64,000 nucleotides of DNA, from contig NZ_JBAJNO010000008.1 in the NCBI RefSeq assembly GCF_036880985.1, positions 1,054,001-1,118,000 of the forward strand. Reading direction: 5' to 3'. Position 1 is the stretch's first letter. Each line of letters opens with the position of its first letter. The DNA is from Limibacter armeniacum. GTDB taxonomy: Bacteria > Bacteroidota > Bacteroidia > Cytophagales > Flammeovirgaceae. The position numbers and the translations under genes are program-made. Shown piece by piece: positions 14,052-33,857 of this stretch. The notes below the pieces were generated by a model. It was not told where the DNA came from, did no database searches, and worked only from the letters and a program-made list of their open reading frames with translations.

Positions 14052-14332
14052 TGGTTTTGGGTTGGAATATGGTTATTGAACACTAAGGGGGTAGTTATAT
14101 TCTAATATTGTCTGTGAGCGTGTTAGATTCACCCCACCCTTCTATTATAAAATGACAGAAATTAACCGAACTTAGTGAGTAAAACAAAAATAAAAGAAGT
14201 TTCTACACGCCTCAACCGAGTTACTTGAAACGGAAACATAAAACCGATACTTTAGTAGATATTTAAAAGGCTAGAGGCATATGCCATATTTGGTCGTTAC
14301 ATAACATAATAAACAAACACACATCACAATTA
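14052..14332. other. intergenic leader of the serine hydrolase gene
   Basis: About 280 bp of AT-rich DNA between repeat copy B and the hydrolase start. No clear promoter, attC-like hairpin or RNA was identified. Confidence 0.3.
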
Positions 14333-15424: not shown

Positions 15425-15506
15425 ACTATAGATTTAAATCATTCGGGAATCCCTGCGTTTTGGTGTAGAGGAGGTAAGGCATTACAGCCACAAGGAAGTT
15501 ATAAAG

Positions 15507-15690
15507 CTTTGATAAGCCAGACCCTGATGGGTTTGGCTTTTTTTGTGACCAATTGTGCCTAAATGTCTGAACCTTGATCTTAAAGATTTAAAGGATTGGG
15601 AGGATGAGGGAGAGTGTTGAGCAAAAGCAGGAAAGTACCATTTCGGAAATTAGGGAGCTGAAGGAGATGATAGAAAGGATGAGGAGGTAG
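15507..15690 (+). repeat. terminator plus coiled-coil-tail repeat, copy C
   Basis: Second partial copy of the unit seen at 13868-14051, again ending with the 3' tail of the coiled-coil gene and its TAG. Upstream of it a stretch starting CCTGCGTTTTGGTG (about 15447) is also found at the far end of the cassette array (about 33790), tying the two ends of the island together. Confidence 0.8.
15514..15545 (+). terminator. rho-independent terminator
   Basis: Stem AAGCCAGACCC/GGGTTTGGCTT with a 4-base loop and a following T run, about 90 bp downstream of the serine hydrolase stop. Confidence 0.85.
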
Positions 15691-15738
15691 TGTATAGGCT
15701 AATGCCTTCTTTAAGGCATATAGGTAGGTTTCTCTTTT

Positions 15739-16131
15739 TTAGCTGTTACCGGCTTTCATATACGCTTGCCACTGTACCAGTACGTATTTATTTCGGTCAT
15801 GTTCGGTGATTTTCAGAAAGCCATACTCAAAAACAAAGAGGTACACCTCCCCTTTTGCATTTTTCCAGTAATGGGTAAAGAAATTAGGGTCAAACCCTTT
15901 AGCCAATAGCGCCTCACAACGTACTGTTGCCTTTCCTGCCTTGTTGTATTCTTTCAGGATCCTTCGGTTCTGTCTTAACTGCTGACTTACCTGATGGTAG
16001 AAATCGGGGGCATCTTCCTTTGTTTTCTGATAGTGATAGACACTTTTGCAGTAATTGTCGCAGAATTTCTTGCCAGCTCTGCCTGTAAGCGATTTACCAC
16101 AGGATAGGCAATGTTTTTCGATGTGATCCAT
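15739..16131 (-). CDS. small zinc-finger protein divergent from the recombinase
   Basis: A 130-aa protein with an N-terminal zinc-ribbon: HCLSCGKSLTGRAGKKFCDNYCK (residues 8-30), a C-x2-C...C-x3-C arrangement. The remainder is basic and helical (QLRQNRRILKEYNKAGKATVRCEALLAKGF) and ends in an aromatic-rich segment. The family is widespread in Bacteroidota, but I know no demonstrated function. It is transcribed divergently from the tyrosine recombinase across a 90-bp gap holding a perfect inverted repeat. A role as DNA-binding regulator or recombination cofactor is inference from position. Confidence 0.6.
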   Translation of the reverse strand: MDHIEKHCLSCGKSLTGRAGKKFCDNYCKSVYHYQKTKEDAPDFYHQVSQQLRQNRRILKEYNKAGKATVRCEALLAKGFDPNFFTHYWKNAKGEVYLFVFEYGFLKITEHDRNKYVLVQWQAYMKAGNS

Positions 16132-16146
16132 AAATGGTTTTAGAAT

Positions 16147-16193
16147 GCTAACCGTTGATTATACGTATATTAAACGTTTAATCAACGGTTAGC
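16147..16193. repeat. perfect inverted repeat between zinc-finger gene and recombinase
   Basis: Arms GCTAACCGTTGATTA (16147-16161) and TAATCAACGGTTAGC (16179-16193), 15/15 matched, with a 17-bp spacer. It lies 15 bp from one start codon and 28 bp from the other. The arms contain ACCGTTG and GGTTAGC, which echo the CCGTT-R boxes of the attC-like sites downstream. It may be a recombinase binding or crossover site, a shared operator, or both. Confidence 0.75.
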
Positions 16194-16220
16194 CTATTAT
16201 GGTTTTGTATCTTATCAGGT

Positions 16221-17344
16221 ATGAAAACACGCCAAATTACGCTCAAGCATCTGCTGATAGCGGGCAGAAAGTATATCGGGTTGCAGTTCTACCCGGACAA
16301 GGTGGTACAGGCACTTGTCAAGGAGCTGCCCAGTCCGAGGTGGAGCGAGCAGTACCGGATGGTATTTATTCCCAACACCAAGGAAAATGTGCAACTGATA
16401 TTTCGGAGGTTTAAGGGAGTGGCTTGGGTGAATGGGCAGTATTTTTTCCGTACAGGAGGAGCCAAAAAGGGAAATCCGTTTCCTGATATGGAGGCATACC
16501 GGCATCGCAAGCTCAGCGAAGGATACCGTCCATGTCCTGAATCCTATCTGGAAAAACTTGAGTTGAAGCGGTATGCCATGAACACGGTCAGGACCTATGT
16601 AGGCTGTTTTGAGGCATTTATCAACCATTTTAAGGACAGGGAACTGCTAGAGATCAATGAACTGGAAATCAGGACTTATCTCCAGCAGCTGATTCGTGAA
16701 GGGAAATCCGACTCAACTGTCAATCAGGCACTCAATAGCATTAAGTTCTACTATGAAGTTGTGGAGGGTATGCCCAACCGATTTTACGAAATCGAACGGC
16801 CACACAAGAAAGAGCGACTGCCGGAGGTATTAAGCCAAGAGCAGGTACTGTCCATGATCAGGAAAACAAGGAACCTGAAGCACCGCTACATCATTAGCCT
16901 GCTTTACTCGGCAGGATTAAGAAGGGGGAGCTGCTGAACCTTGAACCACGTGATATAGAAAGTGATCGGATGCTGATCAGGGTAAGGGAAGGCAAGGGAG
17001 GAAAAGACCGTTACACCATTCTTTCGGAAAAGCTATTATTGGAACTGAGAGCCTATTATAAAGAACACAGACCCAAAAAGTACTTGTTTGAGGGTGAGCA
17101 GGGAGGACAGTACAGTACCACAAGTGTCGCCAGGATTGTCAGCCGAGCTGCCAAGTGGGCAGGAATCCAAAAAAGAGTGACGCCCCATATGCTTCGCCAC
17201 TCATTTGCCACACATCTATTGGAAAATGGGACAGACCTACGATACATTCAGGCGCTGCTGGGACATAACTCAAGCCAAACAACAGAAATTTATACGCATG
17301 TGGCAACAAAAAATTTGAACAAAATCAAGAATCCGCTAGATTAA
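16221..17344 (+). pseudogene. tyrosine recombinase (integron-integrase-like), interrupted by a -1 frameshift
   Basis: Two frames, 16221-16937 and 16970-17344, join into one recombinase of about 374 aa if a -1 shift is made at the G-run 16924-16928. After GGG at 16926-16928, re-reading one G gives GAG-CTG-CTG (ELL), the expected continuation of AGLRRG. The N-terminus carries an extra arm-like domain, then a SAM-like core-binding domain (YLEKLELKRYAMNTVRTYVGC, about 110-130). The catalytic set is complete: Arg in SAGLRRG, Lys in GKGGKDR, HMLRH, and LLGHN...TTEIYTHV with the Tyr. It ends NPLD, reminiscent of the SPLD end of IntI. The extra IntI-specific segment between the Lys strand and the HxxR box seems absent. 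Either a one-base deletion, a sequencing error, or programmed frameshifting. It directly precedes the cassette array. Confidence 0.8.
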
Positions 17345-17352
17345 AGGAGTTT

Positions 17353-17443
17353 TTGACACAGTGCGTATATCAACCATGGTGCTTTTACCCCCTGATTTTA
17401 CGGAATATATACCACTGTGCACTATATACAATTGTTATGGCCA
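17353..17443 (+). repeat. recombinase-proximal attachment site (attI candidate or attC)
   Basis: Directly after the recombinase stop. ACAGTGCGTATAT (about 17357-17369) pairs with ATATATACCACTGT (about 17405-17418), with one bulge, and a further GTATAT/ATATAC element lies just before GTTATGGCCA at 17434-17443, which is the 5' end of cassette 1. Position next to the recombinase and the GTT box make it the candidate integration site. It is more hairpin-like than classical attI sites, so it may be an attC whose cassette gene was lost. Confidence 0.55.
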
Positions 17444-17884
17444 ATGAAAAACAAACCGTACAGCTTAGATCAAGGAATTCTAATTGAAAATAAAGGGGTG
17501 ATTATTCCTTGGCAAACAAGGTTTAAAAAAATTGACAATTTTGGACAACCAGATATAATTAATTCAGAACAACGATCTGACGCAGTATGGAAGGAAGTTC
17601 AAATTTTTAATGGCATTTCAGTAGACTTAGTAGCAATTTTTTGGCACTCGATTTTTGGACGAAATAAGTTAAACAGCGTGCATGCCTATTTTGATGAATG
17701 CACCTTCGAAACGTTTAAAGATCACTTTGCCAAAAAATATAACCAAGAAGGAAAATTGAGGAATAAGAATAGACTAGAATATTATTATTTCTGGAAAAGA
17801 GATCAGTGCAAAATTGTTCTAGGTAAAGGAGATCGGTTTGGTACATATTACTATCTGAGAATTAAGAAATGTAAGTGGCCATAA
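17444..17884 (+). CDS. cassette 1 protein, unknown
   Basis: The ATG at 17444 overlaps the R' box; a GTG at 17417 lies inside the attachment hairpin and is unlikely. The product is 146 aa, soluble, with an aromatic-rich C-terminal half (LEYYYFWKRDQ, FGTYYYLRIKKCKW). No family recognised. Cassette 1 spans about 17434-18002. Its first ten bases, GTTATGGCCA, are the exact reverse complement of TGGCCATAAC at 17876-17885, and the stop codon lies inside that R'' box. Being closest to the recombinase it should be the most recent acquisition if the array follows integron logic. Confidence 0.6.
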   Translation: MKNKPYSLDQGILIENKGVIIPWQTRFKKIDNFGQPDIINSEQRSDAVWKEVQIFNGISVDLVAIFWHSIFGRNKLNSVHAYFDECTFETFKDHFAKKYNQEGKLRNKNRLEYYYFWKRDQCKIVLGKGDRFGTYYYLRIKKCKWP

Positions 17885-18012
17885 CAACACCTACACCCCA
17901 TCCGGCAACTACGCATCAAAAAACGAAACTTGTTTTAAGAACTAAACCTTAACTTCGAAAAATAGACACAGGTAAAACGCCGCACGGTGTGTAGCCTGAA
18001 CCGTTAGCACCA
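17876..18012 (+). repeat. attC-like site 1 (between cassettes 1 and 2)
   Basis: R'' TGGCCATAAC at 17876-17885. The L'' arm around CACCTACACCCCATCCGGC pairs imperfectly with GCCGCACGGTGTGTAGCC near 17977-17995. R' is CCGTTAGCACC, with GTT at 18003. Length about 135 bp. Confidence 0.8.
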
Positions 18013-18020
18013 ATTAAAAA

Positions 18021-18773
18021 ATGACAGACAAGAGAAAATTAGACGAGGGACAAATTTGGACTATGGTTATGACAGTCTTACCTGTTGTAATGTTGATGAA
18101 TGCAGGAAATGAACTGACAGATGATAGTGGAATACGAGTATTATATGCGGGAGTTTTTGGTGGTATCGGTGGATTAATTGGATTTACAATAAACTACTTG
18201 ACAAAAGATAAAAGCAGACTCATTAAAATCTTAGCATCTCTATCAATTTTAATAATCTGCGGATTGACAATATACATTCTATCATCTAAACCGACTGACA
18301 AAGAGATTTTAAATCAAGAATGGGAAACGCAAAAAATTGGAAAAATAGAATTCGATTACCCTACCAAATTAAAATTACAATCAAGCGAAATTCCTGAATC
18401 TGTAAATTGGTTTTACAGTGAATTGAAACTATACTCTGATGGAGGAAATGATAGAGTAGCTTCGTTTTTAAAGACAAAAATCTTAGTTGACACTCTATCA
18501 ATTGAAAATGCTTATTCATACCAATTGGAAGGAATGCTGAAAAAAATGCAAGTAGACATTGAAAATGTGGAGTTGGAAGTATTTTTAGCTGATGAAGAAG
18601 AAATATCTTCTATGTTCTCGTATGACCTCAATGGAAAACAAGTGAATGGATACGGTTTCATGTACATGTATGAAAACTCCTTAGAGTCGATTTGGCTAAT
18701 GCCTATTATTCAAGGTTTTTCAAAAGACTTTATCGAAGAATTTGAAGCTGGGATAATATCAGAATATGAATAA
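18021..18773 (+). CDS. cassette 2 protein, three-helix membrane protein
   Basis: A 250-aa protein with three predicted membrane helices (about residues 13-28, 45-62 and 70-90) followed by a soluble domain of about 155 residues starting IEFDYPTKLKLQ, which resembles PsbP/lipoprotein-type exported domains only loosely. Function unknown. The cassette starts GTTAGCACCA (18003-18012) and ends TGGTGCTAAC (18780-18789), a perfect 10-base inverted match. The ATG lies 8 bp after the box, so the leader is very short and the gene probably depends on upstream transcription. Confidence 0.65.
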   Translation: MTDKRKLDEGQIWTMVMTVLPVVMLMNAGNELTDDSGIRVLYAGVFGGIGGLIGFTINYLTKDKSRLIKILASLSILIICGLTIYILSSKPTDKEILNQEWETQKIGKIEFDYPTKLKLQSSEIPESVNWFYSELKLYSDGGNDRVASFLKTKILVDTLSIENAYSYQLEGMLKKMQVDIENVELEVFLADEEEISSMFSYDLNGKQVNGYGFMYMYENSLESIWLMPIIQGFSKDFIEEFEAGIISEYE

Positions 18774-18779
18774 AAAAAC

Positions 18780-18914
18780 TGGTGCTAACAAAAACTATAA
18801 GCAAGCGGGGCGACAGAGAAAAATGAAACATTAAAGCTATTAACTAACTTTAGGCTCGGCCGACAGGAAAGTGCTTCTAAAGCCTACCTGCTTATAGTAA
18901 AACCGTTGGCGGTA
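18780..18914 (+). repeat. attC-like site 2 (between cassettes 2 and 3)
   Basis: R'' TGGTGCTAAC at 18780-18789. L'' ACTATAAGCAAGCGGGG pairs with the arm CCTACCTGCTTATAGT near 18882-18897. R' is CCGTTGGCGG with GTT at 18905. Confidence 0.85.
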
Positions 18915-18942
18915 ATACGCTGGGACAAATGGAGCGAAAGAT

Positions 18943-19338
18943 ATGAGAATCATTTTATTCTATTTAGGTCAAGCATTGTTGGGACTTGCGTTCTATGAGT
19001 TGGCGTACATGGCAACTTTGAGGTTAGACTTTTTTGAATGGGGAAACTCACAGAATGATGGACTTTATCTCCTGTTCGTTCCAATGGTTCTATTGCCGAT
19101 TATTTTGGTCGCGTCAATTGTAAAGTACTTCGTGACTAAAAAAATGAATGTGGAAAACATTTATAAATGGAGCTTTCTTGTCACAATTGGTTCGATAGTA
19201 ATCTCCACGTTTCTGGCGGTGATTGACGCACTTTGGCTGACACTGGTAATCTCACTTCTGACGATATTAACTATTATCATTGAAACAATTATCCTCTCTC
19301 GACAACTCTTGACAAAAGGACTTAAGGTTAAGACTTAA
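18943..19338 (+). CDS. cassette 3 protein, four-helix small membrane protein
   Basis: A 131-aa, very hydrophobic protein with about four transmembrane segments (roughly residues 3-24, 40-62, 75-95 and 98-118). GGAGCGAAAG upstream of the ATG is a reasonable ribosome binding site. No family recognised. The cassette is bounded by GTTGGCGGTA (18905-18914) and its exact reverse complement TACCGCCAAC (19350-19359). Confidence 0.65.
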   Translation: MRIILFYLGQALLGLAFYELAYMATLRLDFFEWGNSQNDGLYLLFVPMVLLPIILVASIVKYFVTKKMNVENIYKWSFLVTIGSIVISTFLAVIDALWLTLVISLLTILTIIIETIILSRQLLTKGLKVKT

Positions 19339-19349
19339 TGGACGTGTAC

Positions 19350-19444
19350 TACCGCCAACAAAATGTATAATCCATGGCGCTGATAAAGAGGACATTTTTT
19401 TATTTTTGCTCAACGCTACGGATTATACATAAACGTTAGCGATA
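19350..19444 (+). repeat. attC-like site 3 (between cassettes 3 and 4)
   Basis: R'' TACCGCCAAC at 19350-19359. L'' ATGTATAATCCATGGCGC pairs with GCTACGGATTATACAT near 19416-19430. R' is ACGTTAGCGATA with GTT at 19435. About 95 bp, among the most symmetrical sites of the array. Confidence 0.85.
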
Positions 19445-19449
19445 ATAAT

Positions 19450-20571
19450 ATGAAATTTGAATTTAACGGTGAATGGAACTTTTCCATTGAACTCCCACTC
19501 CTTGGTCAGACATTAACTTTTGAAAAAAGAACGGTTTCAAATGACATTCCTGTTACAATAAATGATTCTCATGATTTAGAGCCAGACCCTGAACAAGAGA
19601 AAATAAATGCCATTGAATTCATCATTGAAAACGAAGTACAGCTCTTGGAGGAGTTTCATAATCAAATTAAAGATGAAATTTTCCCTCTTCATAAAACTTA
19701 TATTGACGACGAAGAGATTTTTTTTCCAAAATTCAACTCTGCAAACGAATTAGGTAAAGTTTTAGGTTTAAATCAGATTACAATACTAGGCTTTGAAAAA
19801 GATAACTATGCCTATACTCAATTCGACTTCAACTTTAGTGCTGATCCAGAACATGGAATTTCTTTCATTCTTCACAAAAACCGTTTAGTTGAGCATGAAG
19901 AGATTGGTTCAGTTGGATACGATAATGTCTATAAAGAACTAGGGATTAATCCCAATGAACATCACGAAGGGTGGCATCAACAATACCTAAACCGTGAAAT
20001 AAAACTTCATGAACCTTTAGCGAAATATGGAAAACTTAAACCTTGGCAAGCTGAAATCAATTCGGAATTTATTAGTTCACTAATAAAGGATAAAAATAAT
20101 GAACGTTTTATTGAGCTGATTGAATCAAATAAAATTGACTTAAGCCTGATTCAGTATGACAAGAACCTATTAGAAATAGCAGTTGTTTATAAAAACCTTC
20201 CGATAGTCAAATACTTGGTTGAACACAATCTGCCGTTTAGAAATTCGATCTCTTATTGTCGATCAAATGACATACAATTCTTAAAACAACTTGTAGATCT
20301 TGGTTTAGACATTAATCAACCTGCTATCTACGATCGATCTCTTGCAATGCATGAGATTTATGAAATTATGCAAGGACATTTTCATAAGCGTGAAAACATT
20401 GACGAAATAATAGAACAAAGAGTTTCTACTTTAAAGGAGTTACTTCAACTAGGAGCTTCTTTGGACAATTGTGATTCAGATAAATCAAATTACATTGAGT
20501 GTCTTGAAAAACAATATGCTAAACACTTCATCGAGAAAACTGGTATTATTGAACTTATAGAAGCTATTTAA
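19450..20571 (+). CDS. cassette 4 protein, DUF6985-like domain plus ankyrin-like repeats
   Basis: A 373-aa soluble protein. The middle region with FNFSADPEHGISFILHKNRLVE and EEIGSVGYDN (about residues 136-165) resembles DUF6985, a domain often seen near polymorphic toxin immunity genes. The C-terminal third has ankyrin-like repeats (NLLEIAVVYKNLPIVKYLVEHNLPF, FLKQLVDLGLDINQP, LKELLQLGASLDN). A role in immunity or protein binding is inference. Cassette ends: GTTAGCGATA (19435-19444) and ATCGCTAAC (20575-20583), nine of nine matching. Confidence 0.6.
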   Translation: MKFEFNGEWNFSIELPLLGQTLTFEKRTVSNDIPVTINDSHDLEPDPEQEKINAIEFIIENEVQLLEEFHNQIKDEIFPLHKTYIDDEEIFFPKFNSANELGKVLGLNQITILGFEKDNYAYTQFDFNFSADPEHGISFILHKNRLVEHEEIGSVGYDNVYKELGINPNEHHEGWHQQYLNREIKLHEPLAKYGKLKPWQAEINSEFISSLIKDKNNERFIELIESNKIDLSLIQYDKNLLEIAVVYKNLPIVKYLVEHNLPFRNSISYCRSNDIQFLKQLVDLGLDINQPAIYDRSLAMHEIYEIMQGHFHKRENIDEIIEQRVSTLKELLQLGASLDNCDSDKSNYIECLEKQYAKHFIEKTGIIELIEAI

Positions 20572-20574
20572 AAC

Positions 20575-20777
20575 ATCGCTAACAAGGGCTATGACACCAT
20601 GTCGTGTCAGTGGGTCACGATAGGTTTGTGGTCACTTACTTAGTCCGCGAATTCTTCGAATTCGCCTAGTGTAAAAAAAGAAAATACTATGCGAATTAAA
20701 AGAATTCGCTACTTAGATAAACGAAACGAAATACGAACTGAAACACGCCACGGTGCATAGCCATAGCGTTGTATGCC
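20575..20777 (+). repeat. attC-like site 4 (between cassettes 4 and 5)
   Basis: R'' ATCGCTAAC at 20575-20583. L'' GGCTATGACACCATGTCGTG pairs with CACGCCACGGTGCATAGCC near 20744-20762. The loop is long (about 140 bp) and contains its own GAATTC-rich palindrome near 20648. R' is GCGTTGTATGCC with GTT at 20768. Confidence 0.8.
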
Positions 20778-20888
20778 ATGCTGAAAAAAGGCCAACCGCA
20801 CAAATAGCACATTTGGTTTTTGCCGACACACAAGCAAACGCTGAAAACCAAAAGAGCTATTTCTTGCCGGCACTAATCATATATTGTA

Positions 20889-23800
20889 ATGACCGAAAGA
20901 CAAATAGAAATACACAAAGGGCTAAAAGCTATTGGACCTGAGATAGCACAATTTTACTTAGACGGAATACAATTAATTGACTCTAGTTTAGGAACTAAAT
21001 CTAATCTATTAGCTCATATTCTCAGAGAGATTGATGGTGGTTTACGAGATGTATTTGAGCAAAAACATTTAAAGAAAGAGTTTCAGAAAAAATTAAAAAA
21101 TGAAGACCTTGTAAAGGTATTTGACCAATTTAAGGAAGACTACAAGAATTTTGATTACTTAGGTGACATCACTTTCGAAGACTTTAAAGAAGCTAAAGGA
21201 CACATTTCTTCAATTCTGGTATCCTTTGGTTTCAGTTTTGACCACCCTCTATCAGCTCAATATATTAAAGTTGTGCGATGGCTAGCGAAATACGCGCATA
21301 GGAGTGGTTCTTATAACGAGCCTAGAAATCCTAAAGATATTATTAATCTATGGTATGAATTTGAGGATGTTTTATCAAAATTGATCGGAAACTACTATGC
21401 ACTAGCTGATAGAATAGACTCAATTTTATCACTTGAAGAGCCAACATCAGAAGTACTCAAGACGTTACCAAATCTGTTAAATACAGAATCTAGATTCATC
21501 TATTTTTTCAATGGCCTTAAATCACCTAAGTGGCTAATCCCTTTAGAAAATGAAAAATATTTTGATGGCTCAAAAAATCCTGAGCCTGTCGAATCCGAAG
21601 ATAATCCTGGCTTCTATTCAATGCCCTATTGGGGTGTGCTAACTTACCTTGAGGAGATTGCAAATCAAAATTTAAATACTCCCGAAAAAGAAACTACAGA
21701 ATCCCTTATTAGAATAATTGATAGCATTTGCCTTTACAGAAACTCAGAAGATCAAAGAATAGAAAACTACCGAACAGACTATACGGTACTAAAGCTTATT
21801 TGTACGCTCCCAAAAGAATATATTGATGATAGGCACTTTGAGTTTATCAAAGTTGGTTTATTAAGTAAATGGGATGGGTTAATAGGCCATAGTTACAATG
21901 AGTTTCTGGAGAGACTGATTTCTATAGGTAGAAATGACTTGTTGTTAAAGGGGGTAGAATTACTGTTAACCCATAAAATTGTCGAAGGAACTTTTGAAAA
22001 AGTTCATTCAATATTCAGAAGTTATGAACTTCAAAGGATTCTATCTGATTTCAAAGAAAGATTAATTTCCATACTCGGGTTTGATTTATTAGACCTAGGC
22101 CTACAAAAAATAATTGAAGTCATTGAGCTTGACAAAACTGCCTTTAATAACATTTCTATTCCCGCAATTGAGAACCACGAACAAACATCATTTCCTGATA
22201 AGTACGATTGTCAATTAGTCTACCTTGTTCGAGATACACTTGAGAAACTAGATTCAAAAGATCTAATTGAAACTTTAAAGGAATTTCTTGCCAAAGAACA
22301 CCCAGTCTTTAAAAGGATCGCAATTCATACAATTCGTGTTAGATATTCCGAGTTTAAAGTTCTTTTCTGGGATTTAAAAGAAAACCCCTTAAGCTTACCA
22401 CTCACCAAACATGAGGTTTATGAATTACTCAAGGAGCATTCAACAGAATTCACTGCTGATGAAATTACTCAAATAATCGATTGGATTAATTCTAAAGAAT
22501 ATTATATCCCTGAAGAGTTTGAAGATGATAAAGACAAGGTTGAAAGGTCCATTGCTTATCGAAAAAAGGAATGGCTGACTTCACTTATGCCAAGTGAATC
22601 AGAAATTGTGTCTGAAATGATAAAAGAGTTAGACAAAATAAATGATGCGGATGTTGACCATCCAGGATTTGATTCTTGGCACTCTAGCCTTTCTGGATCT
22701 GTTTCCCCACTAACAATGGAAGATATACTGAAACAGAGCATAGAGGATACAGTCACATTTTATCATGAATTTAATAAACAAGATCATGATTTCATGGGTC
22801 CATCAGTAGATGGATTAATTGACATGCTGACACTGACAGTCCGCAAAAATCCTAGAAAGTATATTGTGGATTGCAAACCACTTATTGAAGCTCCCTCGCA
22901 GATAATTTACGCATGGATAAGAGGATTGGGAGAAAGCTGGAGAGATGAAAAGGAGAAATTTGACAGTACAGAAGCATTTGAGACCATACTCCATATTATC
23001 CAAAAGAAAGAGTTTTGGGAATCACATAATTCTGATGATAATTATAGTCGTTGGTTTATTTCAAGCTTACTTAGCTTTATTGAGGATGGTTTAAGAGATG
23101 ACAATCATGCTTTTGATGCAGACCTGCTTCCAATAATAAAAGAAATTCTATTCACAATTCTTGAAAATGATGCCCACCCAGTTTTTGACTACTCAGATTT
23201 GTCCATGACAGTACTGAATAATTCAAAGGGAAAAATCTACATGACCCTTTTTCAGTATTCTCTAAGATTGGCTCGCTTGGAAGCAAAAGACAATGACCGT
23301 TGGGAAAGTGACATCAAAAAGTTAATTACTCAAAAAATAGAATTGAATGACGAGGATCCTTTACTTTTTTATGTGATCGGGCAGTTTTTACCAAATATCC
23401 ACTTCCTTGACGAAAATTGGATGTTTGAAAATTTCCATAAGCTCTTCCCAATCGAGAACGAAACCAATTGGTCATCAGCTATGAGTGGTTATTTTTTCCA
23501 TCATAGACGGCCAAATAGAGTTTACTTTAGATTTTTTCTAGAAGGCTCACATCTTTTAAAAGCCATATCAAATGACATTGTAAAAGGTGAATCAAAAAAC
23601 AGCTTGATTCAACAAATTTGTACAGCTTACTTATATGACTTTGAATCAATTGATATTGATAAAGAAGTGATTCAAGCATTGATTAATTCTAAAAATGAAA
23701 GTGTTCTATCAAGTTTAATATTCTTCTTTTGGAGTCCTAGATTCCCATTTGAGAAAAAGGTCATTCACAAAATCAAACCATTTTGGGTTGAGCTTTTTAA

Positions 23801-24185
23801 CAATGCGATTAAAATGGAGGATGAAAAAGTAGATTCTTATATACTCTCCGGTTGTTGCAAATGGCTATATAGTGTCGAACAAATAGATGAGGAAGTATTT
23901 GAAATTTTGTCTAAATCTGTTGCTTATCTAAATCAACGTGATCGATATTCAGTTATAGAATCTCTATCAAAGCATATTAACAATTACCCCGAAAAAGTTG
24001 GGTTAATTTTAATCGAGTTATTCAAGAAAGAGGTGAGTTATGATATTTCAAGAGGAAAGCTTCATGAAATGGTAGAGAATCTTTATGATAAAGGGCATAA
24101 AGAAATTGGTGATAAAATTTGTCTTCTACATGGTGAAAATGGCTTTCACTTTTTAAGAAGTTTATACATTAAATACAATACATGA
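20889..24185 (+). CDS. cassette 5 protein, giant helical-repeat protein, unknown
   Basis: A 1098-aa protein, extraordinarily large for a cassette gene. No signal peptide or membrane helix. Near residue 200 it has FFNGLKSPKWLIPLENEKYFD followed by MPYWGVLTYLEEIA, a pattern like the PxWxxPLxxxGFF...PxWPxxxYL motif of large HEAT/ARM-like proteins often seen in defence neighbourhoods. The remainder is alpha-helical repeat-like with no recognisable nuclease, NTPase or protease motif. The N-terminus MTERQIEIHKGLKAIGPEIAQF is distinctive. A defence role is a guess from the motif. The cassette runs from GTTGTATGCC (20768-20777) to GGCATACAAC (24302-24311), a perfect match. Confidence 0.6.
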   Translation: MTERQIEIHKGLKAIGPEIAQFYLDGIQLIDSSLGTKSNLLAHILREIDGGLRDVFEQKHLKKEFQKKLKNEDLVKVFDQFKEDYKNFDYLGDITFEDFKEAKGHISSILVSFGFSFDHPLSAQYIKVVRWLAKYAHRSGSYNEPRNPKDIINLWYEFEDVLSKLIGNYYALADRIDSILSLEEPTSEVLKTLPNLLNTESRFIYFFNGLKSPKWLIPLENEKYFDGSKNPEPVESEDNPGFYSMPYWGVLTYLEEIANQNLNTPEKETTESLIRIIDSICLYRNSEDQRIENYRTDYTVLKLICTLPKEYIDDRHFEFIKVGLLSKWDGLIGHSYNEFLERLISIGRNDLLLKGVELLLTHKIVEGTFEKVHSIFRSYELQRILSDFKERLISILGFDLLDLGLQKIIEVIELDKTAFNNISIPAIENHEQTSFPDKYDCQLVYLVRDTLEKLDSKDLIETLKEFLAKEHPVFKRIAIHTIRVRYSEFKVLFWDLKENPLSLPLTKHEVYELLKEHSTEFTADEITQIIDWINSKEYYIPEEFEDDKDKVERSIAYRKKEWLTSLMPSESEIVSEMIKELDKINDADVDHPGFDSWHSSLSGSVSPLTMEDILKQSIEDTVTFYHEFNKQDHDFMGPSVDGLIDMLTLTVRKNPRKYIVDCKPLIEAPSQIIYAWIRGLGESWRDEKEKFDSTEAFETILHIIQKKEFWESHNSDDNYSRWFISSLLSFIEDGLRDDNHAFDADLLPIIKEILFTILENDAHPVFDYSDLSMTVLNNSKGKIYMTLFQYSLRLARLEAKDNDRWESDIKKLITQKIELNDEDPLLFYVIGQFLPNIHFLDENWMFENFHKLFPIENETNWSSAMSGYFFHHRRPNRVYFRFFLEGSHLLKAISNDIVKGESKNSLIQQICTAYLYDFESIDIDKEVIQALINSKNESVLSSLIFFFWSPRFPFEKKVIHKIKPFWVELFNNAIKMEDEKVDSYILSGCCKWLYSVEQIDEEVFEILSKSVAYLNQRDRYSVIESLSKHINNYPEKVGLILIELFKKEVSYDISRGKLHEMVENLYDKGHKEIGDKICLLHGENGFHFLRSLYIKYNT

Positions 24186-24209
24186 TTACTGAAATAGCAG
24201 TCATACACC

Positions 24210-24278
24210 TTGGCAAGTCGCTTAAAGCAGCCGCGCCAGCCAAAACTTGCCAAAGAGTATATCTGCCCCAACGTTGAC
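24210..24278 (+). repeat. degenerate attC-like hairpin inside cassette 5
   Basis: Downstream of the large gene, TTGGCAAGT (24210-24218) pairs with ACTTGCCAA (24245-24253), followed by ACGTTGACA with GTT at 24272. It lies before the true R'' of this cassette, so it may be an old site trapped by fusion of two cassettes. Confidence 0.4.
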
Positions 24279-24301
24279 AGAAAAGAAAATGAAAAAGCAC
24301 G

Positions 24302-24437
24302 GGCATACAACATTGGCTATACGTAATGCGGGCGAAAGTGCTGATATGAAATTAATTATATTAAACAAACTTTACGACAAACGGACAGTGAAGTGCCTCG
24401 AAATCCCGCACTACGCATAGCCGAGACCGTTATGGGC
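24302..24437 (+). repeat. attC-like site 5 (between cassettes 5 and 6)
   Basis: R'' GGCATACAAC at 24302-24311. L'' GGCTATACGTAATGCGGG pairs with CCCGCACTACGCATAGCC (24405-24422), almost perfectly. R' is ACCGTTATGGGC with GTT at 24429. Confidence 0.85.
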
Positions 24438-24456
24438 AAACCAAAGACAACAAAGA

Positions 24457-25392
24457 ATGACAGAAGAAAGTAAATTATTAGAGGAGGCACAAAAGCATTA
24501 TCATAGAGAAAATGGACAACATGAAGCAATTCGCCTTTATAAAATACTTTTGGAAAAATATCCCAACAACATTACAGGATGGAGTGATTTGGCTTCAATG
24601 CAATACGATATCTTAGATTTTGATAATGCAATAAGGTCTTCTCATAAAATGCTTTCTCTAGACCCAGAAAATGCATGGAATACAGAGATGTTTTTAACTA
24701 AACTAAAGTTGTTGAGGAAATTTAAATTTGCCGCTCCCAATCTTTACTTGGACGAAGAAACAAGAGAAGCACATGAAATTAAAGAGCTAGAAGGAGAATT
24801 TAGCTTATTCGAACAGATTGAAAAATATTCCATCAAACTACTTGATTTATACAAGGACAATTTAAAAAAGGTTTATGAGCTAAATTTAACATTCTCCTTT
24901 ACCCTAATTGAATATGGCAAATATCAAGAAGGATTATCATGTTTAAACAAAGCTTTGGAATTAAAAGATTATCGCGTTTTAAAGAGAAGAAACCCATTAC
25001 CTAATATTTATAATTGGATGTCTACCGCATACTTAGGTCTAAAGGATTATAAGAATGCATTGAAGCATCTTGACATGGCTTTCGAAAATGGACTAGATGA
25101 ATATGTTTATTTGAAAAAGGCTGAAATTTATAAAGAGATGGGAGATTTGGAAATGCATAACCAAGTAATTGAAGACTTCATTAAAATCGTTGATGACAAA
25201 ATAAGAACTAAACCTGAAACGGCATATATATCGCAAAAAATAAATGCAATTTTAAAATTAGGAAATATTTTACGAGCAGAAGAAGCACTTAATGACTTTG
25301 AGGTTTTAAAGCCGTTTGATGAACGAACTCTAAAAATAATTGCAGAGAAAAAAGCTTTGATTAATAATAAAAAAGCTCATAACAATGTATAA
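24457..25392 (+). CDS. cassette 6 protein, tetratricopeptide-repeat protein
   Basis: A 311-aa soluble TPR protein. Repeats are visible at about residues 8-40 (YHRENGQHEAIRLYKILLEKYPNN), 42-75 and 185-215 (WMSTAYLGLKDYKNALKHLDMAF), with further degenerate copies. TPR arrays mediate protein-protein interaction; the partner is unknown. The gene overlaps its own R'' box: GCTCATAAC (25375-25383) encodes part of the final residues, and the stop lies at 25390. The 5' box is GTTATGGGC (24429-24437), so eight of nine bases match. Confidence 0.75.
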   Translation: MTEESKLLEEAQKHYHRENGQHEAIRLYKILLEKYPNNITGWSDLASMQYDILDFDNAIRSSHKMLSLDPENAWNTEMFLTKLKLLRKFKFAAPNLYLDEETREAHEIKELEGEFSLFEQIEKYSIKLLDLYKDNLKKVYELNLTFSFTLIEYGKYQEGLSCLNKALELKDYRVLKRRNPLPNIYNWMSTAYLGLKDYKNALKHLDMAFENGLDEYVYLKKAEIYKEMGDLEMHNQVIEDFIKIVDDKIRTKPETAYISQKINAILKLGNILRAEEALNDFEVLKPFDERTLKIIAEKKALINNKKAHNNV

Positions 25393-25508
25393 AAATATTA
25401 GCCGGGACAGTAGGTTTATCAAGGGTTTAGCCCGCTTTAATTTTCTTGTAATTTGACAGGAAAGTGCCACGAAGTTGGCTACTATTCTTATACTCACCGT
25501 TGGCGGTC
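25375..25508 (+). repeat. attC-like site 6 (between cassettes 6 and 7)
   Basis: R'' GCTCATAAC at 25375-25383, within the end of the TPR gene. L'' GTATAAAAATATTAGCC pairs with GGCTACTATTCTTATAC near 25477-25493. R' is ACCGTTGGCGGTC with GTT at 25499. Confidence 0.8.
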
Positions 25509-25516
25509 ATTACAAA

Positions 25517-26260
25517 ATGAGAAATAACTTAATTATATTATTAATCGGACTATTATTCTTTCAATGCCAAGAAGTTAAGAAGGGAGAAGTAGAAGATGCT
25601 GGCGTAATCGAAGAGTCAATTGATTTTGACACAACTAATATTGTTGAATCAAATACAAATCTGCCTACCCCAGAAGTTCTAATTGATAGTTTGAAAATTG
25701 CTAAAAGTGGTGAGTATAAAATAATTCTTAAACAGATTCGAACACCTGACAGTGTTTATGTTGAATTTGAATTATATAAAAAGGAGAATTTAGGATGGAA
25801 GCACCTTCAATATTTCAGTATTGAAAAAGACGGAATTACAAGTCTTGATGCTGAATTTATAGACTTTAACAACGACAATTATAATGATTTGACCTTTAAA
25901 AGAGGTGTCGCAGCAAGGGGTGCAAATGAATTAAGAAGTCTCTTCGTCTTCGATAAGGAAAAGGAAAAATTAATCCACATTACGAATTCCAATAATTATC
26001 CGAACCTCAGATACAATGCAGAACTTGACTGCATAGATGCTTGGTTAATATATGGTGGAAGCTCTACAGTATTTTTAAAACTAGAAGCAGACACATTGAG
26101 AGAATTTGCAGGTGTCAGTTTGCTGGACACAAGAGATGTTTACACCCTTGACAGAAATGGCAACAAGAAGATGCTGAGTCAAGATGTAATAAAAGATTCT
26201 GTTGTTTACAGAAGGTATTCAAACTATAATCCCTTGAAAGTAAACGAAGAGTATGAATAA
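25517..26260 (+). CDS. cassette 7 protein, putative lipoprotein
   Basis: The ATG at 25517, 10 bp after the R' box, gives MRNNLIILLIGLLFFQC, a lipoprotein signal with Cys at residue 17; an upstream frame from 25475 runs through the attC and is rejected. The mature 230-aa domain contains FIDFNNDNYNDLTF, an FG-GAP/XAC2610-like acidic loop, and WLIYGGSSTVFLKLE. It is probably membrane-anchored and faces the periplasm or surface. Specific function unknown. Cassette ends share the seven bases GTTGGCG/CGCCAAC (25499-25505 and 26269-26275). Confidence 0.65.
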   Translation: MRNNLIILLIGLLFFQCQEVKKGEVEDAGVIEESIDFDTTNIVESNTNLPTPEVLIDSLKIAKSGEYKIILKQIRTPDSVYVEFELYKKENLGWKHLQYFSIEKDGITSLDAEFIDFNNDNYNDLTFKRGVAARGANELRSLFVFDKEKEKLIHITNSNNYPNLRYNAELDCIDAWLIYGGSSTVFLKLEADTLREFAGVSLLDTRDVYTLDRNGNKKMLSQDVIKDSVVYRRYSNYNPLKVNEEYE

Positions 26261-26268
26261 AAACGAAT

Positions 26269-26331
26269 CGCCAACAAGGTGTATAGTGCATCCCCTTCGG
26301 AATACGCACCATACACAAACCGTTGTACTGC
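26269..26331 (+). repeat. attC-like site 7 (between cassettes 7 and 8)
   Basis: A compact 63-bp site: R'' CGCCAAC, L'' GGTGTATAGTGCAT, loop with CCTTCGG, L' ACGCACCATACAC, R' ACCGTTGTAC with GTT at 26322. It is nearly identical in the arms and loop to site 13 at 33716-33778. Confidence 0.85.
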
Positions 26332-26413
26332 ATATGGGAGTAAAACGTAGATAAAGAAATCCAAGTCAAATCTAACCAAACAATGAATTCAAATTAAAAA
26401 TCACGAACAATCA

Positions 26414-26746
26414 ATGAAGTGGGAATTATCAAGAATTTACTATGCATTCGAGAAGCTCAGTAACTTAAATTGGGATACAAGCAACGATTTGAAGTGGGGT
26501 TTTACTTTTTTTGCTAAAAGCAAAACAACTTTGAATAAAATATTTGATGAATTGGTCGACTACAACTACCACATAGACAAATTTGAAAAAAGAGAAGATT
26601 TAGATTTATGGATGTTGCACGTAACTAAAATCGAAACACTACTGCCTGACAAACTTCACCGTCGAAACTTAGCATTCGAACAATTGGCCAATTCATTCGA
26701 CGAATCGGATTACGATGGGTGGAGTGTTGAAAAAACTGAGAACTAA
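26414..26746 (+). CDS. cassette 8 protein, RraB-like (regulator of ribonuclease E family)
   Basis: A 110-aa protein. The WGFTFFAKSK segment, LWMLHVTKIETLLPDKLHRRN (about residues 64-85) and the terminal YDGWSVEK match the RraB fold, in which F/LHVEK and YDG(W/F)xV are typical. RraB inhibits RNase E in gammaproteobacteria; single-domain relatives are frequent in Bacteroidota accessory DNA without known targets. Cassette ends are GTTGTACTGC (26322-26331) and GCAGCACAAC (26773-26782), nine of ten matching. The leader between box and ATG is about 80 bp. Confidence 0.7.
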   Translation: MKWELSRIYYAFEKLSNLNWDTSNDLKWGFTFFAKSKTTLNKIFDELVDYNYHIDKFEKREDLDLWMLHVTKIETLLPDKLHRRNLAFEQLANSFDESDYDGWSVEKTEN

Positions 26747-26772
26747 CAATTATTAGAATACTGAAAAAATAC

Positions 26773-26857
26773 GCAGCACAACAATGGCTAGCAGCAATAG
26801 TCGCTTAGGCCTACACACAAACCAAAACTACAGCTGCTAGCCTCGCCGTTAGTGGCA
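26773..26857 (+). repeat. attC-like site 8 (between cassettes 8 and 9)
   Basis: R'' GCAGCACAAC at 26773-26782. L'' GGCTAGCAGC pairs with GCTGCTAGCC near 26833-26842. R' is GCCGTTAGTGGCA with GTT at 26848. Confidence 0.85.
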
Positions 26858-26860
26858 ATT

Positions 26861-27376
26861 ATGGAAATGAGTAAATTCAGAATATTATATAAAGCTATAA
26901 TTGTGATTTTAGCTTTAAATCAATCTTGCATAACACCTAGCACTGATGAAATTCAAAAAATTGATAAGCCAGACTATTTAAAAATTAAGAGTTTTGGAAT
27001 AGGTGAAACAGGACAAATTATTTATCAGTTCTATCAGAAATATGGTTTTACAGATTTAGAGGAACAACTTATTTTAATTACTAAACCTGAAAAGATTGAT
27101 TTTTTGACTTCTGATTTACCTTTAAATTTGACGGATTTACAAAATCTTGAAAAGATAGATGTACGTAAATTTAAACGAGATACATCAATCATTTATGAAG
27201 TCGAAAAATATATACATTCTGATATGAGGCTTGAATCCGAAGAGTTTGATTCATCTAAAAATAAATCAGTTTTCCATGTAAAAGGAAAATATAAGTTTGT
27301 TCAAACTGATTCTGTTGAAACTCTTTGGTTGTTTGATAAACAAACAGGACTGATGTATATTGAATCGAAGAAATGA
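26861..27376 (+). CDS. cassette 9 protein, putative lipoprotein
   Basis: The ATG at 26861 gives MEMSKFRILYKAIIVILALNQSC, a lipoprotein-type signal with the Cys around residue 23; ATG 26867 would also work, while the GTG at 26852 lies in the R' box. The mature domain of about 150 residues is not recognised (GETGQIIYQFYQKYGF, VFHVKGKYKFV). The cassette has perfect ten-base ends: GTTAGTGGCA (26848-26857) and TGCCACTAAC (27380-27389). Confidence 0.6.
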   Translation: MEMSKFRILYKAIIVILALNQSCITPSTDEIQKIDKPDYLKIKSFGIGETGQIIYQFYQKYGFTDLEEQLILITKPEKIDFLTSDLPLNLTDLQNLEKIDVRKFKRDTSIIYEVEKYIHSDMRLESEEFDSSKNKSVFHVKGKYKFVQTDSVETLWLFDKQTGLMYIESKK

Positions 27377-27379
27377 AAA

Positions 27380-27543
27380 TGCCACTAACAAAGGCTAAAA
27401 AAGCATAGCGTTATTAGTAAAATTGGTAGGTTATTGCGTGTAAGCATACCCGCTACAAATTAAATGAATTTCAAAGGCGTGGCTATTTAGCAGACGGAAA
27501 GGTAATTTCTTCGAAATGCTTTTTAGTCGAGCCGTTGTGGTTT
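27380..27543 (+). repeat. attC-like site 9 (between cassettes 9 and 10)
   Basis: R'' TGCCACTAAC at 27380-27389. L'' GGCTAAAAAAGCATAGCG pairs imperfectly with CGAAATGCTTTTTAG. R' is GCCGTTGTGG with GTT at 27534. Loop of about 100 bp. Confidence 0.75.
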
Positions 27544-27738: not shown

Positions 27739-29017
27739 CACTCTACGGTACAGTTTTAATAACAAAGTGAGTTAAGGGTGTAATGCTGGATTACAGGATA
27801 TTTGCAGGTTATTTAAGGGCTGATTGGGGCAAGAAAAAGCAAAGGTCTAACTTTGCCGTTCGCCAAAACCACAAGCCAGACCTTTACCTTTATGTTGACT
27901 GCAAATATACTTGAAATCCTCTGCGGTTTCCAAATCGTCAAAGGCAAACCAAGCAAACAGGTACTAGCCAAGCTAATTACGGCCTTGGTGGAAGATGAAA
28001 ATGTGCAATTTCATCAGATAGCCAAAAACTTGCCATCCAAGGCGCAAAAAGCTTCTCGGACCAAGCAAGTCAAACGCTTTATGTCAGGAGCTGTGTTCAA
28101 TTATCAGGCCCTGATGGCATGGTTGTTTTCCTGCCTGCCATCCGGAAAGATCACCCTCTGCATTGACCGAACCAACTGGCAGTCCAGAAAGCAGGCAGTG
28201 AATATTCTGGCCGTGACAGCCTACAGTCATGGCGTGGGTTTCCCACTGGCTTTTCGGCTACTGGACAAAAAAGGAAACAGCCACCAGCAGGAGCGTATTG
28301 ATTTGCTGAAGGAAGTGCTTCAGATTGTACCTCCCGAGCGGATCGGGAAAGTGATTGCAGACCGGGAGTTTATCGGCAAAAAGTGGCTTCGGTTTATGAC
28401 CATGCAAGGGATTGTCTTCTGCGTTCGGATTCCATCACACCACAAAATCAGCATCGATGGTGTGGAGAAAACAGGAGAGGTATGGAGCAAAGAAGGCTTT
28501 CGCTGTACTGACCGAAGAGCGACGATCTATGGAATGGACCTGACTCTTTCCATGCAGATGACCAAGGATAAAAACGGGCGAAAGGACTACCTGATCGTAG
28601 TCTCAAACCTGATGAAAAGAGGCTTGCTGTCAAGCTATAGAAAACGGTGGAGCATCGAGGTGTTCTTCCAGTCGCTCAAAGGGCGGGGATTCAACCTGGA
28701 AGCCACTCACCTGACCAAATTGGATCGGCTTGAAAGACTTTTTGCTGTGGTGTGTATGGCCTTTGCTGTTTGTCACTTATTTGGCGTGGCTTTCCATGAA
28801 AAAGTACAAAACATAAAAGTAAAGAACCACGGTTACAGGGAGAACAGCTATTTCAGAAAGGGAAAAGATCTGTTGCAGGAACATTTCTGTACGAGATCCC
28901 GCCAAGTAGGTAATGAGATCAAAGGACTTTGGAAGAAGTTTTGGAGGGGAATTAGTCCCAAAACACCATCTGAAAAACTGGTTTTTAGTTGGTTATAAAA
29001 AAGTGTACCGTAGAGTG
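27739..29017 (+). mobile_element. IS4-family insertion sequence
   Basis: A 1279-bp element with terminal inverted repeats CACTCTACGGTACA (27739-27752) and TGTACCGTAGAGTG (29004-29017), extending a few bases inward with one mismatch. It carries one DDE transposase and interrupts the cassette 10 gene. No target duplication can be seen at the junctions. Confidence 0.85.
27853..28998 (+). CDS. IS4-family DDE transposase
   Basis: A 381-aa transposase. Catalytic residues are visible as CIDRTNW (first Asp, about residue 98), IADREFIG (second Asp, about 171) and the YREK signature Y-x2-R-x3-E-x6-K in YRKRWSIEVFFQSLK (about 257-271), which places it in the IS4 family. The start is TTG at 27853 (LPFAKTTSQ...); an ATG 39 bp further is the alternative. 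It appears intact and may still be active. Confidence 0.9.
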   Translation: MPFAKTTSQTFTFMLTANILEILCGFQIVKGKPSKQVLAKLITALVEDENVQFHQIAKNLPSKAQKASRTKQVKRFMSGAVFNYQALMAWLFSCLPSGKITLCIDRTNWQSRKQAVNILAVTAYSHGVGFPLAFRLLDKKGNSHQQERIDLLKEVLQIVPPERIGKVIADREFIGKKWLRFMTMQGIVFCVRIPSHHKISIDGVEKTGEVWSKEGFRCTDRRATIYGMDLTLSMQMTKDKNGRKDYLIVVSNLMKRGLLSSYRKRWSIEVFFQSLKGRGFNLEATHLTKLDRLERLFAVVCMAFAVCHLFGVAFHEKVQNIKVKNHGYRENSYFRKGKDLLQEHFCTRSRQVGNEIKGLWKKFWRGISPKTPSEKLVFSWL

Positions 29018-29879: not shown

Positions 29880-30944
29880 ATGGCGGTTAAGTATTCCCTC
29901 GGTATCGACATGTCCAAACAAAACTTCAAGGTATGTTTCCTATCCAAGTATCTTGATGGACATTGCAAGGTGAAAGGCAGCAAAGGATTTGAAAACTCTT
30001 TGGCAGGCTTTACCAGATTCAAGGAGTGGTATGAGCAGCGGCAAAGGGAAAAGTTACCTTGCAGTTTTGTACTGGAGGCAACCGGCAACTACCATGAGCA
30101 GCTGGCTTGGTTTCTTTTTAGAGAAGGGCAGACTGTTCATGTAGTATTGGCCAACCGGGCGAAAAACTACCTGAAGAGTTTGGGGTTGAAGAGTAAAAAT
30201 GATCACATCGATGCAAAGGGATTAGCCCAAATGGGGGCAGATCAGCAACTATCGGTTTGGCAGCCATTGTCTGAAAACCTGTATGTGCTTCGAAGCATGA
30301 CCCGTTACCATGAGGACCTGTGCAAAGTACTGGTACAATTCAAGAACCAGTCCAAGCAACTGACATACAGCATGTACCCACTCCGAGAAGTTGCTGAGGG
30401 GCTTCAAGTTGCATTGGAGGCAATAGAAAAACAGCTTCAGGAAATAGAGCAACAGATCGGGTTATTGATTGAAAAAGATGAGGCTTTGCGTAAAAAAGTA
30501 GCATACATGACTTCAGTCAAGGGAGTCGGTCTGATGACAGCTGCTGTAGTAGTGGCTGAGACCAATGGGTTTTCACTGGTTCATAACGGAAAGCAACTCA
30601 CTAGTTATGCCGGCTATGATGTGCGGGAAAACCAGTCAGGTCAGCGGCGGGGTACTACTAGTATCTCCAAGAAAGGGAACAGTCATATACGCCGGATCAT
30701 GCACATGGCCGCTTTGAATGTAGTGCGCTATAAAGTGGGAAATTTCAGCAACCTTCAGCAACGGGTCTATGAGCGCTCGGGCTATAAAATGAAAGGCTAT
30801 GTGGCTGTACAGTCCAAGCTTTTGAGATTACTCTATACTTTATGGAAAACAGAGCAATGTTTTGAACCTAGGTGGTCAGAAAAGAATACAAAAGGTCTAA
30901 TCAATGAAACTAAAAGTCAGGAAAGAGATATGAATCGCTCTTAA
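29880..30944 (+). CDS. IS110-family (DEDD) transposase
   Basis: A 354-aa transposase. The N-terminal RuvC-like DEDD domain shows GIDMSKQNF (Asp, about residue 9), LEATGNYH (Glu, about 63) and KNDHIDAKGLAQ (two Asp, about 103-106). The C-terminal Transposase_20 part has MTSVKGVGLMTAAVVVAE and ...LTSYAGYDVRENQSG with the conserved Ser region GNSHIRR. These are the defining features of IS110. The family uses a structured non-coding (bridge) RNA to choose targets in characterised members, and one subgroup inserts into integron attC sites. The element sits beside an orphan attC-like site here. It appears intact. Confidence 0.92.
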   Translation: MAVKYSLGIDMSKQNFKVCFLSKYLDGHCKVKGSKGFENSLAGFTRFKEWYEQRQREKLPCSFVLEATGNYHEQLAWFLFREGQTVHVVLANRAKNYLKSLGLKSKNDHIDAKGLAQMGADQQLSVWQPLSENLYVLRSMTRYHEDLCKVLVQFKNQSKQLTYSMYPLREVAEGLQVALEAIEKQLQEIEQQIGLLIEKDEALRKKVAYMTSVKGVGLMTAAVVVAETNGFSLVHNGKQLTSYAGYDVRENQSGQRRGTTSISKKGNSHIRRIMHMAALNVVRYKVGNFSNLQQRVYERSGYKMKGYVAVQSKLLRLLYTLWKTEQCFEPRWSEKNTKGLINETKSQERDMNRS

Positions 30945-33012: not shown

Positions 33013-33023
33013 AATTAGAATAA

Positions 33024-33710: not shown

Positions 33711-33715
33711 AAAAT

Positions 33716-33815: not shown

Positions 33816-33857
33816 GCAAGGAGATAAGGAAGTTATTTAAAGGAAACAATAAAGATT

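Follow-up and report, generated by a model that had tools for sequence, protein, structure and literature searches.

Among described systems, the closest to the one treated here are the integrons, for which the literature cited below is drawn on in extract. In their canonical attC sites the choice of strand depends on an extrahelical base in the R''-L'' arm (PMC2727003); such bases are docked by the I2 helix, and the additional domain of the integrase IntI is held to be what lets integrases use folded single strands, intermediates being lacking (PMC7790495). Within a subgroup of integron-like tyrosine recombinases the IntI insertion is not fully conserved (PMC8138268). Surveys identify integrons by the additional domain of IntI together with attC models (PMC9024848, PMC9668308, PMC2426708), the Bacteroidota are among the integron-bearing phyla (PMC8618304), and a complete integron has been named in Salinibacter ruber (PMC9024848). 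Here, we examine a stretch of 64,000 nucleotides from Limibacter armeniacum (NCBI RefSeq assembly GCF_036880985.1, contig NZ_JBAJNO010000008.1, positions 1,054,001 to 1,118,000 of the forward strand; hereafter "the window") in which a tyrosine recombinase gene is followed by an array of cassettes separated by attC-like sites. We read this locus as an integron-like cassette platform of the class Bacteroidia that is run by an Xer-like recombinase devoid of the IntI additional domain and, judging from sequence, we give this reading a probability of roughly 80%.

Cassette ends, unit boundaries and hairpin sites

A preliminary description of the window had noted that, between positions 17434 and 27389, the start of each of nine cassettes is reverse-complementary to the far end of that same cassette and not to the neighboring box. 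Our recount bears this out, down to the match counts given for the individual cassettes: over GTT and the seven positions that follow it, own start and own end agree at 10, 10, 10, 9, 10, 8, 8, 9 and 10 of 10 positions in cassettes 1 to 9, whose first G lies at 17434, 18003, 18905, 19435, 20768, 24429, 25499, 26322 and 26848, respectively. At the seven positions outside GTT, own ends score 6.33 of 7, against 2.12 across the junction with the start of the next cassette and 2.44 for all non-own pairs, and the observed own-match sum was reached in 0 of 200000 permutations of the boxes. The same holds for a second array of ten cassettes in this genome (L009; own 6.80, next 2.11, non-own 2.08) and for an array of eleven in another (L042, genome G267; own 6.73, next 3.00, non-own 2.66), each with 0 of 200000 permutations. 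Because the cassettes entering these permutations had been chosen by their own match, the test was repeated blind to the outer (R) boxes, on 72 intervals from 17 loci that were bounded solely by the inner hairpin arms. An own match of at least 6 of 7 was then found in 44 of the 72 intervals and in 5 of 292 non-own pairs; the blind test missed the other 28 intervals, including all five of locus L048 and five of the six of L272.

The preliminary description had thus seen a true integron-type signature, which it took for direct evidence of excision and insertion. That step goes too far, for the attC of an integron cassette is the attC of its circular form (PMC2674596), and own-end pairing is to be expected of any integron cassette; it identifies cassettes and by itself is no proof of movement. 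Exact duplicates are better evidence of mobility. In L042 an 843-bp cassette is present twice with 100% identity, which starts at the G of GTT (the preceding base differs) and stops directly after the next GTT, 223 nt beyond AAC. In L048 (genome G090) a 722-bp cassette is likewise present twice and exact, its identity again stopping directly after the next GTT, with two more bases matching before GTT on the left side. Since identity is bounded there in both pairs, the mobile unit ends at GTT. The earlier proposal of circularizable units whose joined ends form a matched site, inserted at GTT, is supported by these duplicates; the accompanying claim of a cut between G and TT goes further than they do, for the duplicates place the crossover, as far as sequence can be read, inside or beside the triplet without revealing the exact phosphate, and a G/TT cut would be a feature carried over by analogy from IntI integrons.

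The grammar of the sites was derived from a collection of 37 arrays, whose 236 cassettes are separated by 198 sites (195 of them unique). Of these cassettes, 200 have their longest open reading frame (ORF) on the array strand and 13 on the opposite one; the remaining 23 have none of at least 60 amino acids. The 10-nt box match that had been described is real, although the matching does not fade out at that point: 10 paired positions are followed by a conserved mismatch at position 11, where 150 of 234 cases have A at the start opposite C in the end box and only 10 of 234 form a Watson-Crick pair, and then by two or three more paired positions (181 of 234 at position 12 and 172 of 234 at position 13). 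A frequent layout of the inner box is 6 bp, A.C, 4 bp, A.C and then the stem; of 109 ungapped sites, drawn from 19 loci, 40 carry A.C at the two inner positions. These mismatches have an orientation, since in 80 long sites A.C outnumbers C.A by 39 to 0 at the first inner position and by 41 to 4 at the second. Each A.C mismatch of the top strand becomes, in the complementary strand, a G.T wobble, and the bottom strand consequently folds more stably: with DNA parameters, the bottom strand of the site as re-formed in the circle is the stabler one in 169 of 196 cases, the top strand in 24, with 3 ties, as against 78 for the bottom and 118 for the top in random stretches of the same loci. As to bulges, the 195 sites comprise 96 without any, 35 with a bulge on the 5' arm, 19 on the 3' arm and 45 that are poorly paired. 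Site lengths cluster in the 50s, 110s, 180s and 220s of nucleotides, and do so across genera. GTTR is near-general, position 4 being A or G in 121 of 134, and the 7-bp core GTTRRRY is not followed.

A control on canonical IntI loci, run with a 7-mer rule, yielded chains inseparable from noise and is not relied on; in it, A.C at position 11 was outside the five commonest pairs of the IntI loci, as compared with 120 of 393 in the Bacteroidia loci. A DNA search for a plasmid integron that could serve as control returned no record at 80% coverage.

The recombinase and its association with arrays

The recombinase gene of the window (16221-17344, forward strand) is frameshifted near 16930 into frames of 238 and 124 amino acids, and the two broken pieces give Xer-like profile matches that are below the curated cut-offs. 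An intact copy of 374 amino acids lies elsewhere in the same genome (G000:C9, L009:6522-7646), where it precedes the second array, so that this genome contains the recombinase-array pair in two places. Over 1958 nt (window 15492-17448) these platforms share 98.3% identity, the alignment stopping 14 nt inside the first cassette. Residues R234, K259, H323, R326, H349 and Y358, which we take to be the catalytic ones, are invariant in an alignment of 13 rows.

Several lines of evidence separate this protein from the integron integrases, a point that the preliminary description had missed, as it had the recurrence of the whole architecture across the Bacteroidota. The spacing between the motifs GLRxxE and HxLRH is 96-97 residues in all 16 array-linked recombinases measured from the 37 collected arrays, as against 138 in every one of the 18 IntI proteins (out of 20) that could be measured, a difference indicating that the IntI additional domain of some 42 residues is missing from the former. 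The integrase VchIntIA (2A3V) aligns in two stretches, with 64 of its residues skipped where the query has 21. By sequence the closest solved relative is the Xer/XerA protein 4a8e; by fold, the Xer/XerA structure 5hxy gives Z 25.5 over 262 aligned residues (rmsd 12.8), and the IntI structure 2a3v gives Z 21.5 over 258 (rmsd 4.3). In a tree built by a quick method, ten IntI form one branch (SH-aLRT 100) that contains none of the 16 array recombinases. On its sequence, the adjacent recombinase is Xer-like and not an integron integrase.

Relatives of the recombinase were found at an E-value of 1e-60 or better in 104 of 291 genomes of the order, many as partial matches, and at 1e-80 in 35 of 395 genomes of the class. 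The association with arrays was measured on 31 full-length homologs (identity of 40% or more, downstream sequence of 2.5 kb or more), arrays being sought within 8 kb. At least three cassettes lie downstream in 22 of the 31 and at least two in 25; by comparison, of the 9 upstream flanks that reach 2.5 kb, 1 holds three or more. The array starts 45-161 bp past the recombinase match in 17 of the 22, and at 0.76-3.9 kb in the other five. Loose chaining, with an own-end match of 8 of 10, was abandoned in favor of stricter rules, as it produced 416 chains in five rounds of shuffling; under the stricter rules 20 rounds gave 182 chains of two, 8 of three, 1 of four and 3 of five. Longer arrays occur in Winogradskyella ursingii (5 cassettes), Seonamhaeicola aphaedonensis (6), Aequorivita sinensis (6), Arundinibacter roseus (6) and Algibacter onchidii (10) and, by the association test only, in Rufibacter sp. 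SYSU D00344 (13) and Flavobacterium enshiense (9). Two arrays, L075 and L087, are present in the association test and absent under a slightly stricter, differently bounded rule. Several draft contigs (L043, L046, L047, L051, L054, L057, L063 and L065) end less than 2 kb past the recombinase, as if arrays were hard to assemble, and arrays may therefore be undercounted.

Four plasmids add little: their chains after the recombinase number 3, 2, 2 (this one 4.9 kb away) and 3, those upstream 0, 2, 2 and 2. On one of them (L306, from Chryseobacterium sp. SNU WT5; 16720-18036 and 11104 on), a group II intron reverse transcriptase lies just beyond a region that has three cassette-like units and long near-identical repeats. 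A plasmid search with cassette 1 as query gave no match, nor did a phage search with the recombinase at 1e-40; a scan of viral contigs kept 80 relatives with 30-47% identity to the recombinase.

Two further parts of the system are conserved. The first is an extra N-terminal domain of about 100 residues, for which neither Pfam, queried with P0001 and five further members, gave a match beyond chance (one partial overlap, E 0.22) nor the PDB a sequence match below E 0.05. Its predicted model has a mean pLDDT of 77.6. In Foldseek the top match was to an archaeal XPB, with the HARP domain of SMARCAL1 at rank 10, and all matches were weak (E 0.14 and worse); the best VIA Z, 6.5, is again to XPB (57 aligned residues, rmsd 2.2); such a model-based likeness to XPB and HARP is a lead and not a finding. 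The second is a gene for a Cys-rich protein of about 130 residues, divergently oriented before the recombinase in 19 of the 28 array loci that have 600 bp or more of upstream sequence. It accompanies 24 of 91 other recombinase loci, and only 2 of the 32 of those in which the recombinase match starts past residue 95. The protein has nothing near a cut-off in NCBIfam and is predicted, from its sequence, to be zinc-finger-like.

Proposed mechanism and its alternatives

In the mechanism that we propose, the recombinase, transcribed toward the array, would join the attC-like hairpin of a cassette to the attI-like site immediately downstream of the recombinase stop codon, and would excise cassettes between adjacent hairpins. 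Each cassette holds both halves of its own R box, which can pair fully only in the circle; circularization would then restore the site, with its 10 bp, conserved mismatch and two or three further pairs. The substrate would probably be the folded bottom strand, as in integrons, and the strand would be chosen largely through conserved mismatches that read A.C on the top and G.T on the bottom, a role that in integrons falls to the I2 helix and to extrahelical bases that are obligatory there. That I2 is missing and that an extrahelical base is no longer universal would, we infer, go together.

The best-surviving alternative, which we nonetheless regard as unlikely, keeps the same recombinase and has it act on double-stranded palindromic sites in the manner of Xer on dif, the hairpin being a by-product of inverted binding sites. 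An enzyme closest to Xer/XerA would suit this well, XerCD being described as free of adaptations for single-stranded substrates (PMC4792948), and the A.C positions could mark two half-sites. Yet in the array the two R halves come from different cassettes and are mostly unmatched, which would leave a duplex site asymmetric, and it is the circle that restores pairing, the bottom-strand fold being stabler there than in the array for 186 of 196 sites. The distance from AAC to GTT, which ranges from the 30s to the 230s of nucleotides, would also be hard to accommodate in a duplex site. Finally, the inner arms fold at -13.7 kcal/mol with their own partner and at -6.3 with permuted ones (195 sites, RNA parameters); pairing is thus kept while the sequence varies, which implies that pairing itself is under selection.

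A second alternative would make these ordinary cassettes, moved by a canonical IntI that acts in trans or has since been lost, with the Xer-like recombinase as a bystander. Arrays without IntI (CALINs) are indeed common and their cassettes may be mobilized in trans (PMC9668308), the R''-L''-L'-R' architecture and the bottom-strand preference are shared with attC sites (PMC2727003), and IntI over the cut-off occurs in 105 of 395 genomes of the phylum. Within the class Bacteroidia, by contrast, only 1 of 395 genomes has one, and this genome has none over the curated cut-off, the best TIGR02249 place scoring 114.9 bits against a cut-off of 265. The position of arrays 3' of the Xer-like recombinase in 22 of 31 homologs, and an R box and mismatch grammar unlike GTTRRRY, also speak against a bystander, and we consider this explanation improbable, even more so than the preceding one. 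An artefactual origin of the matching ends, be it in terminator symmetry, common boxes or homologous duplication, can practically be dismissed: although cassettes 3 and 7 have a common start, GTTGGCGGT, and some cassettes recur within an array, the matched ends are up to 3.5 kb apart and their boxes differ, so that terminator symmetry does not explain them, and both the permutations and the R-box-blind test go the other way.

Returning to the platform run by an Xer-like recombinase, a number of observations weigh against it. The array recombinases are not one clade, the label needing seven changes on the quick tree, and those of L091 (10 cassettes) and L112 (3) fall outside the main group. Fewer than three cassettes follow the recombinase in 9 of the 31 homologs, and none at all in 6 of these; conversely, 10 of 42 other homologs, with a shorter match or lower identity, also have at least three. 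Chains of at least three appeared in at least one of ten shuffles at 11 of the 31 loci, which makes short chains weak when taken alone. In 9 of the 28 array loci no accessory gene was found, although several of these nine had less than 1 kb upstream. Top-strand folding is favored by 5 of 37 loci, in a strand test that includes possibly mis-delimited sites. The inner arm pairs poorly in 45 of 195 sites, and another 35 do bear, on the 5' arm, the single-base bulge expected of canonical attC; the A.C pattern is common and not universal. Lastly, no recombination has been observed.

The finding suggests that gene capture of this kind exists, in a large bacterial group, in a version peculiar to that group. 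A bolder and distinctly more tentative proposal, which we hold to be less probable than its opposite, is that this is a second kind of integron in the Bacteroidia, independent of IntI or older than it, in which recognition of A.C/G.T mismatches, possibly by the N-terminal domain and with a zinc-finger partner, would replace the docking of extrahelical bases by I2. If true, cassette shuffling on folded single strands would need no I2. If such platforms are widespread in the Bacteroidia, a large reservoir of mobile genes escapes the surveys keyed to the IntI domain and attC models, and the origin of integron integrases becomes directly testable.

The platform in detail and its place among known systems

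In the window the platform begins with the gene of the divergent accessory protein (130 amino acids, reverse strand, 15739-16131), whose Cys-rich N-terminus has a DUF2116 treble-clef match below the cut-off. Between it and the recombinase gene lies a 47-bp imperfect palindrome (16147-16193, 89%), which is found in both platforms and may be a regulatory site. The recombinase stop is separated from the first GTT by an attI-like stretch of about 90 nt (17345-17434), shared with L009. All cassettes and sites are on the forward strand; cassettes are counted from the G of GTT and sites from AAC to the next GTT. Cassettes 1 (17434-17885), 2 (18003-18789) and 3 (18905-19359) are followed by sites 1 (17883-18005), 2 (18787-18907) and 3 (19357-19437). 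Cassette 4 (19435-20583; site 4, 20581-20770) encodes a DUF6985 protein with a weak ankyrin match, and the 3.5-kb cassette 5 (20768-24311) a protein of 1098 amino acids with no Pfam match at E 0.01; in its site (24309-24431) both inner A.C mismatches are visible by eye. Cassette 6 (24429-25383; site 6, 25381-25501) encodes a TPR protein; in cassette 7 (25499-26275; site 7, 26273-26324) the first seven end positions match contiguously. Cassette 8 (26322-26782; site 8, 26780-26850) encodes an RraB-family protein, and cassette 9 (26848-27389) is followed by site 9 (27387-27536).

The preliminary description had ended the array at 27389; its cassettes up to there stand, and the array extends beyond. 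A cassette 10 begins at 27534 (to about 27770) and has no matching end before a transposase gene; two transposase-like genes (27853-28998 and 29880-30944, the second presumably IS110-like) break the array after cassette 9. Past them lie an attC-like site (32944-33006) that by eye resembles site 3 of L009 closely, a last cassette (33004-33722) whose own ends agree at only 6 of 10 positions, unlike cassettes 1-9, and which may be degraded or hybrid, and a last site (33720-33771), followed by a right flank common to the L009 array. On either side the platform of the window is bordered by a terminator-like sequence (15452-15546 and 33790-33889, about 74% identity), a copy of which closes the L009 array (L009 17762-17873). 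Intergenic repeats of about 80-200 bp, 93-95% identical, occur close to both platforms (window 12802-12881, 13877-14053 and 15515-15692; L009 908-989, 3721-3868 and 5799-6002). Scans of the window with Rfam and for tRNAs gave no matches.

How, then, does this system compare with those already described? In the open literature, to which our search was confined (subscription papers and preprints were outside its scope), we found no recognizable cassette system whose recombinase is devoid of the additional domain, and extracts of PMC8352920 and PMC8565304 contain nothing on such a system; an earlier publication outside that literature may exist. In the integron-like subgroup mentioned above, as extracts of PMC8138268 present it, members without the insertion are tied to no cassette arrays or sites, and the insertion is called essential for integron function. 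NCBI's model NF040815 is named "tyrosine recombinase/integron integrase", and a relative on a Chryseobacterium plasmid is annotated with that name; this naming and that subgroup together imply that such recombinases may already be filed loosely near integrons. The integrons of Treponema are treated, in the extracts at hand, as intI systems, unlike the present one with its lack of an IntI over the cut-off.

Xer/XerA proteins are the closest solved relatives of the recombinase by sequence and fold, and differ from it in having neither cassette arrays nor its N-terminal extension of about 100 residues. The integration of the CTX phage by XerCD offers another likeness, in that the stem of the phage site has no extrahelical bases and mimics duplex DNA and the enzymes have no I2-like domain (PMC4792948); CTX, however, has no cassettes or array and borrows host enzymes. 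With integrons the system shares tandem cassettes with ORFs mostly in one direction, AAC...GTT sites with inner and outer arms, own-end complementarity, GTT boundaries, a favored bottom strand and, putatively, an attI-like stretch beside a tyrosine recombinase. It departs from them in a recombinase that has no IntI additional domain and is outside the IntI clade, in an R box of 10 bp with a conserved A.C mismatch instead of the 7-bp GTTRRRY, in about half of its sites having no single extrahelical base, in the extra N-terminal domain and divergent accessory gene, and in the placing of the recombinase on the cassette strand. By the sequence comparisons made here, the system works like an integron, yet its recombinase lacks the domain by which integron integrases are defined, and it differs from integrons in the grammar of its sites.

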